Below are positions 55,237 through 64,000 of a stretch of 64,000 bases of DNA, one piece after another. The stretch lies in assembly GCA_003105035.1 (NCBI GenBank), contig PQAL01000002.1:62001-126000 (forward strand). The letters run 5' to 3'. Below the pieces are notes generated by a model. That model saw only the letters and a program-made list of their open reading frames with translations. It made no database searches and had not been told where the DNA came from. This stretch comes from Anaerolineales bacterium (GTDB taxonomy: Bacteria; Chloroflexota; Anaerolineae; Anaerolineales; UBA4823). Both the position numbers and the translations under genes were made by a program. The first letter of the stretch is position 1. Each line of letters opens with the position of its first letter.

Positions 55237-56223
55237 ATGCCTCGTGCCCTCTACTATAATGCGAGTAGTGATATCTTGACCGAAATCAGTCCAGACAATT
55301 ACACACATGCCCTGCAGGACAATGCTGGAGTGCTGTGGGCTGATTTCACTGGCGAAGAGCCAAAACCCGCTGAAGAGATCCTGTTAAGTACTTTTGGGTT
55401 TCATCCCCTGGCTGTGGATGACGCGCTGCAAGAAACCCATGTTCCCAAAGTAGACGATTGGGAAAAGTACCTGTATATTGCCATGCATGCCATCAGTTAT
55501 AAAAGTAGCAGCGAAGATATCGACACGATTGAGCTGGATATCTTCCTGGGTGAGAATTATATTGTCACCCACCATGACCTTCCAATTCAGGCATTGGAGC
55601 GGGTGTGGGATATCTGCCACAAGGATGTCAGATATTTTAAACGCGGTGCCGATCATGTGCTTTACGAGATAACAGATGGCTTGATCGTGGACTATATGCA
55701 GGTCGTGGAAGCCCTGGATGAAGAGATTGAACGCGTCGAAGACATCATATTCGACAACTCTTCCGCCAAGATTGTCCAGCGTATCTTCACTTTGAAACGC
55801 ACAACGCTGCATCTACGCCGTGTCCTTTCACCTTTGCGCGAGGTGCTAAATAAGCTGGCACGCGACGATTATGCTGTGATCGATGCGCGTGACCGGGTGT
55901 ATTTTCGGGATGTCTATGATCATCTGGTGCGCCTGCATGATATCTCTGAGAGCTTGCGTGACTTGGTGGGAGGCGTTCTGGATACCTACCTGTCGGTGAT
56001 CAACAATCGCATGAACGATATCATGAAGACTCTCACCATGATTACCACGATCTTCATGCCCATATCATTCCTGGTAGGCTTCTATGGGATGAACTTCTTC
56101 CAACCGACTTCGGGTCATTTAATGAGATGGACGGGTACCGCCGCCTTTATCGTAATGATGGCGGTGATGATCGGCACTCCCATCCTGATGTTCACCTGGA
56201 TGCGCCAGCGCAGGTGGATGTAA
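55237..56223 (+). CDS. corA: CorA family magnesium/cobalt transporter
   Basis: A 328-residue protein. The N-terminal cytoplasmic alpha/beta domain and long helices are followed by the signature YGMNF in helix 1 of the membrane part (PISFLVGFYGMNFFQP) and a last helix TAAFIVMMAVMIGTPILMFTWM. CorA pentamers import magnesium. The RBS is CGGAGGAA. Another metal-transport locus lies at the end of the window. Confidence 0.92.
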   Translation: MPRALYYNASSDILTEISPDNYTHALQDNAGVLWADFTGEEPKPAEEILLSTFGFHPLAVDDALQETHVPKVDDWEKYLYIAMHAISYKSSSEDIDTIELDIFLGENYIVTHHDLPIQALERVWDICHKDVRYFKRGADHVLYEITDGLIVDYMQVVEALDEEIERVEDIIFDNSSAKIVQRIFTLKRTTLHLRRVLSPLREVLNKLARDDYAVIDARDRVYFRDVYDHLVRLHDISESLRDLVGGVLDTYLSVINNRMNDIMKTLTMITTIFMPISFLVGFYGMNFFQPTSGHLMRWTGTAAFIVMMAVMIGTPILMFTWMRQRRWM

Positions 56224-56253
56224 TGAGCTGATTTAACAAGCCAAAGGAGATAA

Positions 56254-60782: not shown

Positions 60783-61496
60783 TTATTTGATTCCGTACGT
60801 CACACCTACTGATACGGTCAGAGTTAGCTGACCAGGGGAGATGGGTACGTTGGCTCCACCACCCGCAGCTGCAGCTTTGTTGTCGTAGTAAATCGGGCTG
60901 GGTGAGCTGCTGTAGTAGCTGATGTTCTGAACAGCTCCCAGTTTCACACCGGCGCCTGAAGCCAGTTGCTCGGCCTGGGCTTGGGCATCCGCCATAGCCT
61001 CATCGCGACCGGACGCCATGGCTGCTTCTTTGTTCTGGACATCGAAGGTGATGCCATAGATGCTGTTCGCACCGGCTTTGACACTTGCATCCAGGATGGT
61101 GCCGATCTTGGCGATATCCCGCATCGTCACATAGACGGTGTTATCGGTCATGAAGACAGTCCCTGTCACTTCTCCATTGGGTGAAGTCTGTTGCTGCTGG
61201 TAAACACTGAAGTTGGTGGTCTGGATATCTTTGGCATCCACACCCTGCGCTTTAATGGCCTCAATCACGGCCTGGGTTTGGGTATTGTTGGCAGCCACTG
61301 CCTCAGCAGCACTTGCAGCCTCACTGTGCACACCAATGGATACATAGGCAATATCAGGCGTCATGATCACTTGTGAATTACCAGTAACGTTGATCGTGCG
61401 CGGTTGGGCTTGGCCAATTGAAATTGAGGCGCTGCAGGCGCTCAGAGCCAGGGCAGCGATGATAAAAATTGATGGGATTAATAGTTTGGTACGCAT
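60783..61496 (-). CDS. SIMPL domain (DUF541) lipoprotein
   Basis: A 237-residue exported protein with a lipobox (ALALSAC) near residue 24 and a DUF541/SIMPL domain starting RTINVTGNSQVIMTPDIAYVSIGV. The C-terminal part includes YYSSSPSPIYYDNKAAAAGGG and VSVGVTYGIK. Family members are envelope proteins linked to oxidative stress or membrane integrity; the function is unclear. The ATG at 61496 is chosen because GGAGG lies 5 nt upstream, within the longer frame. Confidence 0.85.
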   Translation of the reverse strand: MRTKLLIPSIFIIAALALSACSASISIGQAQPRTINVTGNSQVIMTPDIAYVSIGVHSEAASAAEAVAANNTQTQAVIEAIKAQGVDAKDIQTTNFSVYQQQQTSPNGEVTGTVFMTDNTVYVTMRDIAKIGTILDASVKAGANSIYGITFDVQNKEAAMASGRDEAMADAQAQAEQLASGAGVKLGAVQNISYYSSSPSPIYYDNKAAAAGGGANVPISPGQLTLTVSVGVTYGIK

Positions 61497-61595
61497 TGTT
61501 ACCTCCATGTAACTTGTTATGTTTCAATAAGACGATGGACTATTGCAGAATGTTCCTGTGATCCCTATTATTAAAAAATATGTAAAGGTTACCTC

Positions 61596-61624
61596 TTGCC
61601 TTCATCCAGCCGTGGTGCTATACT
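61596..61624 (+). promoter_or_regulatory. Sigma70 promoter of the metal-transport leader
   Basis: TTGCCT (61596-61601), 17-bp spacer and TATACT (61619-61624). It would start an RNA near 61632, giving a leader of about 330 nt before the MgtE_N/CBS gene. Confidence 0.6.
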
Positions 61625-61631
61625 TTTTAGG

Positions 61632-61896
61632 TTGTAAACAAAAATCTATGACAATAACTATTTTGATGGACCATAACCAAGAATCAACGTTTGAAAGTAC
61701 TAGCTCGATCGGTATCAACCTGCAAAACAAACTAGAGGATGACGACCGCCCTCCGAGTAGTCGGTGCACACTAAGGTGTGCGGTTAACAACGTGATTATA
61801 CCTGCAGGGAACAGGAAGGCCTAAAAGGGTAAGTTAATTAATCATTAACTTCCCGGAAGTGGCTTGTTCTTAGCCATGCCTTCCGGGAAGTTTTTT
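61632..61896 (+). ncRNA. Structured leader RNA, candidate riboswitch
   Basis: The leader contains a possible three-way junction: P1 GACCGC / GCGGTT (61744-61749 with 61780-61785), P2 CCGA / TCGG with loop GTAG, and P3 ACAC / GTGT with loop TAAG. Downstream, GGAAGGC (61814-61820) can pair with GCCTTCC (61878-61884), which belongs to the 3' arm of the terminator at 61847-61896. AAGTTAAT / ATTAACTT (61831-61851) forms another competing hairpin. This arrangement is what a transcription-attenuation riboswitch looks like. It does not match the M-box, Mn (yybP-ykoY) or NiCo consensus that I remember. A short ORF at 61543-61824 crosses it and has no support. Confidence 0.45.
61847..61896 (+). terminator. 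Attenuator-type terminator upstream of the MgtE_N/CBS gene
   Basis: Outer stem AACTTCCCGGAAG / CTTCCGGGAAGTT (13 bp), inner stem TGGCT / AGCCA, then six T residues. It lies 66 nt before the coding start, inside the leader, with no gene upstream on this strand that it could serve. Confidence 0.85.
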
Positions 61897-61961
61897 AACC
61901 CCACACCTCCTGGGCCTGCTGTTGAATATTGGATGATCCTGTATAGTTCAGGAGGTGTATG

Positions 61962-63218: not shown

Positions 63219-63286
63219 TGGAGGGCTTTTAGCCGTCAGGATCGACCCTGGACGAAACGCCAATCTTTTGAGTGAGGGTTATGATT

Positions 63287-64000
63287 ATGAGCCTGTGGCA
63301 GAGATTGAGACCATTCCGCACCCGCCTGGCACTACTGCTGGCCGTGGTCGGCCCCGGCATAATTACCGCTAACGTTGACAACGATGCCGGCGGGATCACT
63401 ACGTATTCTGTCTCTGGCGCCCGCTATGGTTATGGGCTGCTATGGATGATGCCGCTGGTGTTGGTTGCCCTGATCATCGTGCAGGAGATGAGCGCCCGTC
63501 TGGGTGTGGTGACTGGTAAAGGCCTGGCAGATTTGATCCGTGAGCGCATGGGAGTGAGGATCACTGCAGTGATCCTGGCCTTGCTGCTCTTTGTAAACCT
63601 GGCGAACACCGTCAGTGAGTTTGCCGGGGTGGCTGCCAGTATGGAAATCTTCGGCGTCAGTAAATTTATTTCGGTGCCCATCGCGGCAGTTTTGGTGTGG
63701 CTGCTGATCGTTAAAGGCAGTTACAAGGCTGTGGAAAGGGTGTTCCTGGTGGCCAGTGCGATATATCTCACTTACGTTGCTTCAGGTGTGCTTGCCAACC
63801 CCGATTGGCAGGATGTGACCCAGGCCCTGGTCACTCCCTCCTTCCACCTTGATATCGGTTATGTAACCATCTTTGTGACCATCATTGGCACGACCATCGC
63901 ACCCTGGATGCAGTTCTACCAGCAGTCCTCCATTGTTGATAAGGGCGTGCAGATTAAGGATTACGCTTACGAACGCGTGGATGTAGTGGTGGGTTCACTG
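63287..64000 (+). CDS. Nramp-related divalent metal transporter, N-terminal part (runs off window)
   Basis: 238 codons are present with no stop at the window edge. The first helix region reads GPGIITANVDNDAGGITTYSVSGARYG, in the position of Nramp DPGN. Helix 6 reads GTTIAPWMQFYQ where manganese/iron Nramps have MPH, so the metal-binding Met is an alanine. Similar changes occur in Nramp-related magnesium transporters. The start at 63287 is 8 nt after GAGGG. It is 68 nt after the MgtE_N/CBS gene, and the pair probably forms one magnesium uptake system (inference). Confidence 0.8.
   Translation, partial: MSLWQRLRPFRTRLALLLAVVGPGIITANVDNDAGGITTYSVSGARYGYGLLWMMPLVLVALIIVQEMSARLGVVTGKGLADLIRERMGVRITAVILALLLFVNLANTVSEFAGVAASMEIFGVSKFISVPIAAVLVWLLIVKGSYKAVERVFLVASAIYLTYVASGVLANPDWQDVTQALVTPSFHLDIGYVTIFVTIIGTTIAPWMQFYQQSSIVDKGVQIKDYAYERVDVVVGSL

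Follow-up and report, generated by a model that had tools for sequence, protein, structure and literature searches.

The window analysed here, a 64,000-nucleotide stretch of DNA from an Anaerolineales bacterium, carries near its end a leader with an intrinsic terminator upstream of a predicted metal-uptake operon, raising the question of what this leader senses and by what means. The sequence-only reading took it for an attenuator operated by a candidate metal riboswitch, maybe of a new class. The attenuator half of that reading is retained, with a terminator/antiterminator switch in control of an uptake operon, and the riboswitch is replaced as the sensor. We propose that the leader probably attenuates transcription in response to Mg2+, the sensing being done by a ribosome as it translates a short leader peptide that is acidic and contains proline.

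Gene content and promoter of the locus

The features of the locus are collected in Table 1. The downstream genes had been taken for a metal uptake system, and their domain content bears this out, with a PRC-barrel/MgtE_N/CBS protein followed by a protein of the NRAMP family. The latter scores 414 bits against EleNRMT (7qia), its closest relative of solved structure, as opposed to 98 bits against the next best solved NRAMP, and contains the NDAGG and APW motifs; the NRMTs are described as set apart by an Asn-to-Gly change in helix 1 and a Met-to-Ala change in helix 6 (PMC8806188). This partner is an NRMT of the Mg2+ type, its transport activity being predicted from sequence.

The promoter, previously judged a good one, does match the expected hexamers, and from these the transcript would be expected to start near 61631; however, a scan for such promoters finds one where shuffled sequences yield a mean of 1.2, and we regard it as plausible rather than proven.

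Table 1. Features of the leader and its neighboring genes (coordinates of the window)
Feature	Position	Strand	Remarks
Divergent SIMPL/DUF541 gene	60783-61508	minus	Borders the leader, 61596-61958
Promoter-like TTGCCT / TATACT, 17-nt spacer	61596-61624	+	9/12 matches
Leader ORF, 52 codons, MDHNQESTFESTSSIGINLQNKLEDDDRPPSSRCTLRCAVNNVIIPAGNRKA*	61666-61824	+	TAA stop at 61822-61824
EDDDRPP codons, residues 24-30; proposed low-Mg2+ drop-off site	61735-61755	+	From the codon table; putative role by analogy to MgtL (PMC11282234)
Small hairpin GCACAC-TAAG-GTGTGC	61766-61781	+	From folding; just 3' of the acid-proline codons
GGAAGGC, second possible antiterminator, at the end of the leader ORF	61814-61820	+	From complementarity
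Candidate antiterminator hairpin GGGTAAGTTAAT / ATTAACTTCCC, 11 bp	61827-61854	+	-10.7 kcal/mol
Intrinsic terminator with T run (stem to 61892)	61847-61896	+	18 bp, -27.8 kcal/mol
PRC-barrel / MgtE_N / CBS protein, 419 aa	61959-63218	+	GGAGG at 61951-61955 just before
NRAMP-related magnesium transporter, NRMT type	63272-64000	+	Extends beyond the window; full length 422 aa

The leader RNA and the question of an aptamer

The leader without its terminator (61626-61845) folds like shuffled sequence (z = +0.09, with 101 of 200 shuffles as good), which leaves the structured aptamer or three-way junction suggested earlier unsupported; the z of -2.1 obtained for the whole leader covers the terminator as well. 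In an Rfam scan of the whole window only a tRNA, lying outside the leader, reaches its gathering cut-off. The M-box (RF00380, gathering cut-off 44 bits) has no match in the window and none in the leader up to E 10, a range in which the leader search returned no metal riboswitch, and neither the Mn riboswitch (yybP-ykoY) nor any other Rfam riboswitch attains a gathering score in the window. The sequence-only reading had remarked that the core is unlike the M-box or Mn riboswitch; the Rfam search that it had proposed as a check matched no family, and the riboswitch is nevertheless unsupported. The best sub-threshold matches of the leader are His_leader (22.5 bits vs 49) and, on the minus strand, azaaromatic (22.1 vs 45). 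We read the former match as a generic resemblance between leaders with terminators and not as membership.

A short acidic reading frame in the leader

The earlier reading had missed both an ORF in the leader (61666-61824) and the 11-bp hairpin that follows it (61827-61854). The former is a short ORF upstream of an NRMT operon, with its predicted Mg2+ transporter gene, and has an acid-proline cluster, EDDDRPP, at residues 24-30. This places the cluster within the first 30 residues, where acidic residues are reported to act in ribosome drop-off of the MgtL type, with proline helping (PMC11282234). No Shine-Dalgarno sequence precedes the ORF, and a further in-frame ATG lies 5' of its start, at 61648. 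Its codon-usage score is slightly negative (-1.3), as against -22.8 and -37.0 for the other two frames.

In 2000 shuffles of 61631-61850, an ATG-initiated sORF with an acid-proline cluster arose 7 times, a closed ATG ORF of at least 45 codons 51 times, and both features together twice, these odds being post hoc for the window since the acid-proline rule was written after seeing it. No close relative shares the window leader: the orthologous genes at 64-66% (L003, L004, and L032) are preceded by no comparable one. Neither the window peptide nor five from relatives exceed the cut-off of any Pfam or NCBIfam family, one sub-threshold match being to CSLREA (14.1 bits vs 25). Given this lack of a family and the variation of the C-terminal halves between lineages, we rejected a stand-alone small protein as the role of these ORFs.

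Terminator and candidate antiterminator

The strong intrinsic terminator that had been noted is present, its stem (61847-61892) leaving 66 nt to the ATG at 61959; it stands in the place of the Rho-dependent termination of the MgtL system. The 7-nt complementarity between GGAAGGC and GCCTTCC (61878-61884) in the terminator 3' arm is likewise confirmed. In a duplex test, the pairing of the window leader with the terminator arms is no better than that of shuffles (p 0.46 and 0.63). The proposed mutual exclusion of terminator and antiterminator is recovered by folding as two exclusive hairpins, the second being the 11-bp hairpin, which starts 3 nt past the stop codon of the leader ORF and occupies the start of the terminator 5' arm. 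For a transcript that stops at 61862 its pair probabilities are 0.88-1.0, and in folding of growing, unbound transcripts it is present up to about 61886. When a ribosome is masked at the stop codon the hairpin is gone, and when it is masked at the PP codons the hairpin is intact. With shuffled upstream sequence, all 8 test bases were paired in 38 of 500 cases and an equal or better energy was reached in 15 of 500. The antiterminator is the weakest step of the scheme, standing modestly above chance.

Across relatives, pairing of the leader to the terminator arms beats shuffles (p <= 0.025) in 9 of 44 leaders, the window not among them; 13 of an original 57 were dropped from this test, 8 as doubtful leader calls and 5 with the terminator not 3' of the ORF. 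Among 18 leaders with a strong Shine-Dalgarno sequence, 11 (mostly members of a single clade) have the pairing between the Shine-Dalgarno region and the terminator 5' arm ranked in the top 5% of positions, as does 1 of the remaining 39 leaders. The native pairs are barely better than swapped ones (-12.1 vs -11.05), and given these near-equal values we treat this pairing only as a lead, not as a general antiterminator. In five loci (L005, L175, L047, L048, and L184), the terminator 3' arm is a near-copy of the Shine-Dalgarno region of the leader, so that both are possible partners for the 5' arm. A separate set of six loci (L206, L216, L217, L220, L224, and L230) all have CAAGGGAC in the leader codons around IKG, complementary over 8 nt to GTCCCTTG in the terminator 3' arm, a few codons past DDQPDP or DDQPGP.

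Leaders upstream of orthologous genes in relatives

For comparison, we gathered MgtE_N/CBS orthologs in the family and order (matches in 51 of 61 genomes, most of them weak), in the class and order at E 1e-90 (61 of 298 and 77 of 400, respectively), and from titled contigs (80 loci, mostly from other phyla). As a leader we counted an ATG-initiated ORF with at least 2 D/E in residues 2-4, or with a six-residue stretch containing two D/E and two P. The Chloroflexota set comprises 124 upstream regions, each of at least 400 nt, with identical ends counted once; a script assigned the gene starts, and some upstream regions may therefore be off, as is certainly the case for L054, whose leader sits farther up.

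Such ORFs occur in 48 of the 124 regions, compared with 3 of 124 on the reverse strands and a mean of 10.3 (maximum 20) over 60 shuffled sets of the 124, the species being related and the counts hence not independent events. An initial count had given 20 of 66 against 1.7. Before random unrelated genes of the same class the rule is satisfied in 26 of 340 cases, or 10 of 151 where there is a 100-nt gap, and among the titled-contig orthologs, mostly of other phyla, in 10 of 75. The remaining 76 Chloroflexota regions have no ATG leader by the rule. A terminator lies at most 260 nt from the gene in 73 of the 124 regions (13-23 in five shuffle sets); of the 48 regions that have an ATG leader, 34 also have such a terminator. 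The feature shared among relatives is a type of reading frame, short, acidic, and often containing proline, rather than an RNA core.

The leaders fall into lineage-specific types, including MDADDH/MDADGS/MDSDDS, which follow a strong Shine-Dalgarno sequence, and MDTDSSSSHI...PP, MDEDNSNS...GEDDPPR, MQLEETGTSKDVPPLS, ESESLSADDQPDPASIKGL, DLDPDP, and SLDPDH. As a measure of coding selection, pN/pS of the ORF frame was compared with the other two frames in eight groups of related leaders. It is the lowest of the three in five of the eight: group A (0.55 vs 0.85 and 1.18), B (0.40 vs 1.07 and 1.15), C (0.43 vs 2.27 and 0.75), E (0.22 vs 1.37 and 2.20), and H (0.61 vs 0.99 and 0.86). Group D has 0.30 vs 0.43 with the third frame undefined, group F has no signal (0.60 vs 0.55 and 0.54), and group G goes in the opposite direction (1.59 vs 0.37 and 3.46). 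Four loci with no leader ORF (L003, L004, L032, and L035) have in common a promoter-like TTGAC with GGTGCTA in the last 100 nt before the gene and, in L003 and L004, a small GC hairpin with a T run right behind; control in these four looks different.

M-boxes, tandem elements, and MgtE channels

The NRMT gene lies downstream of the ortholog in 50 of the 56 loci from the class and order that extend far enough and in 51 of 69 titled-contig loci. An M-box precedes the ortholog in 6 of 60 Chloroflexota loci scanned with Rfam (L006, L008, L050, L051, L191, and L199) and in 2 of 17 scanned titled-contig loci (L111 and L116). In five of the six Chloroflexota cases (L008, L050, L051, L191, and L199), a leader-type ORF preceded by a Shine-Dalgarno sequence follows the M-box and its terminator, the ORFs of L191 and L199 having one acidic residue in positions 2-4. 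These five loci would present two tandem Mg2+ control elements, an M-box with its own terminator and then a leader ORF. The ORFs of L050 and L051, identical in both (IDADHKS...) and located after AGGAGGTGATCGC at ~235 nt and ~181 nt before the gene, respectively, seemingly start at ATA, making an AUA start codon possible.

Comparable ORFs are found before genes for the MgtE channel (PF01769), which is encoded by 118 of 249 genomes of the class. From the matches listed, 70 upstream regions were read (30 + 40 loci) and 67 used, L253 (uncertain start), L275 (no start), and L265 (too little upstream) being left out. Of the 67, 13 have an ATG ORF with an acidic start, compared with 2.4 (maximum 7) in shuffles. 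M[DE][DE]S ORFs, whatever their start codon, are found in 11, compared with 0.23 (maximum 2) in shuffles and none on the reverse strands; in the 40 regions fetched after this motif had been noticed it occurs in 6, against 0.09 in shuffles. By the acid-proline rule alone there is no enrichment ahead of MgtE genes (3 of 67; shuffles 4.8), and an Rfam scan of 20 of these loci detected no M-box. A search of the source genome of the window found no MgtE channel. Its one CorA gene, the only PF01544 match in the genome, is within the window (55237-56224). CorA was considered as a further leader target and rejected: the gene follows closely behind another, which by eye we take to be that of ribosomal protein L19, and a search for a leader before it found none.

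Proposed mechanism and its alternatives

Given that the leader has no aptamer-like fold and no Rfam match, and that a reading frame recurs in its place among relatives, the likeliest sensor is a ribosome in the act of translation rather than a metal-binding RNA. The scheme starts from the observed ORF with its acid-proline cluster, the position of its stop codon, the exclusive hairpins, the identity of the NRMT, and the repeated presence, in the class, of leader ORFs of this kind before both the ortholog and MgtE channels; from here, we infer translation of the ORF, ribosome drop-off, its dependence on Mg2+, and the polarity of the switch. At high Mg2+ the ribosome would pass EDDDRPP and reach the stop codon, where it would hide the antiterminator bases 61827-61838 along with GGAAGGC; with the antiterminator hidden, the terminator would form and transcription would end. 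At low Mg2+ the ribosome would be destabilized at EDDDRPP and leave the RNA about 70-85 nt earlier, allowing the antiterminator to form first and RNA polymerase to enter the MgtE_N/CBS-NRMT operon. That a completed ORF would mean "off" is suggested by the position of the stop codon.

Extending this beyond the locus, there is perhaps an even chance that the Anaerolineae have their own class of Mg2+ sensors, large, quick to evolve, and based on the ribosome, with acidic, often proline-containing leaders and intrinsic terminators; with an origin separate from that of enterobacterial MgtL, it would control NRMT operons and MgtE channels and replace the M-box in some lineages while standing in tandem with it in others.

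Three other explanations were weighed. The one that survives best, though still unlikely, is that the leader ORF responds to a signal other than Mg2+, such as the charging of tRNA for Asp, Pro, or Ser, the activity of EF-P, or the overall capacity for translation, metal uptake being one of the outputs. Salmonella mgtP is known to respond to proline (PMC3641672), PP motifs stall ribosomes, and many leaders are rich in Ser and Asp; however, the leaders precede Mg2+ transporters of two unrelated families and stand directly behind M-boxes, and their common trait is acidity, often with proline, rather than any one codon. Somewhat more doubtful is a riboswitch of a new class, in which the leader RNA would bind Mg2+ or another metal directly and so control the terminator. 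The terminator and the exclusive pairing would fit it, as would the M-boxes preceding some orthologs and the published M-box control of NRMT genes (PMC4072509), but the null result at Rfam gathering scores and the shuffle-like folding led us to reject it as the best explanation, and relatives share a type of reading frame, not an RNA core. Least probable, by a little, is that the window ORF is a chance frame in a leader that acts only as a constitutive terminator/antiterminator or processing site: its missing Shine-Dalgarno sequence, neutral codon usage, and lack of a close relative with the same leader agree with this, but the rarity of its features in shuffles and the occurrence of such ORFs at the same place in relatives, far above chance, speak against it.

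Comparison with known systems

The ribosome-based reading has its closest parallel in the MgtL peptide of mgtA in E. coli and Salmonella. This too is a short leader peptide with acidic residues and proline, located upstream of a gene for Mg2+ import; when Mg2+ is low in E. coli, ribosomes drop off at EPDP and mgtA is transcribed (PMC11282234). MgtL has EPDP at residues 2-5 and a Rho-dependent terminator, whereas the window leader has its cluster at residues 24-30 and an intrinsic terminator, and the Chloroflexota leaders belong to another phylum and to other transporter families (NRMT and MgtE). The peptide sequences, too, seem unrelated to that of MgtL. Other proline-rich or acidic short ORFs with cis control over Mg2+ transporters are those of the mgtP and mgtM attenuators of mgtCBR and the mgtQ uORF of Salmonella, the acidic residues of the last acting on a Mg2+ transporter gene (PMC3641672, PMC8092293). 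As portrayed there, mgtP differs in responding to proline and in that its own translation raises expression, the mgtCBR leader in that it has no intrinsic terminators, and mgtQ in acting on translation.

The M-box (RF00380) resembles the window leader in exerting Mg2+ control via a terminator (PMC4072509) and precedes the orthologous gene in sister lineages; it differs in being absent from the window, where the leader has no aptamer structure. The pairing of an NRMT gene with a partial MgtE gene, together with its M-box control, was already published for operons such as those of C. acetobutylicum and A. capsulatum, whose regulation is given in that source as M-box or unknown; the MgtE-associated NrmT of A. 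capsulatum behaved there as a Mn transporter (PMC4072509). A leader of the proposed kind would explain the control of M-box-less NRMT operons in these organisms and offer a sequence handle for predicting which NRMT-type transporters carry Mg2+.

A literature search covering mainly papers outside subscription did not turn up leader peptides of this kind described for Chloroflexota or ahead of genes for MgtE or NRMT, and in the literature found, Mg2+ sensing by aborting ribosomes is known from enterobacteria. What is new is apparently a Mg2+-responsive leader-peptide attenuation that arose separately from MgtL. If true, this would be a second, unrelated case in another phylum, making ribosome stability a widely used gauge of intracellular Mg2+ and the destabilization of ribosomes by nascent chains, as in MgtL, a general bacterial strategy for sensing Mg2+.
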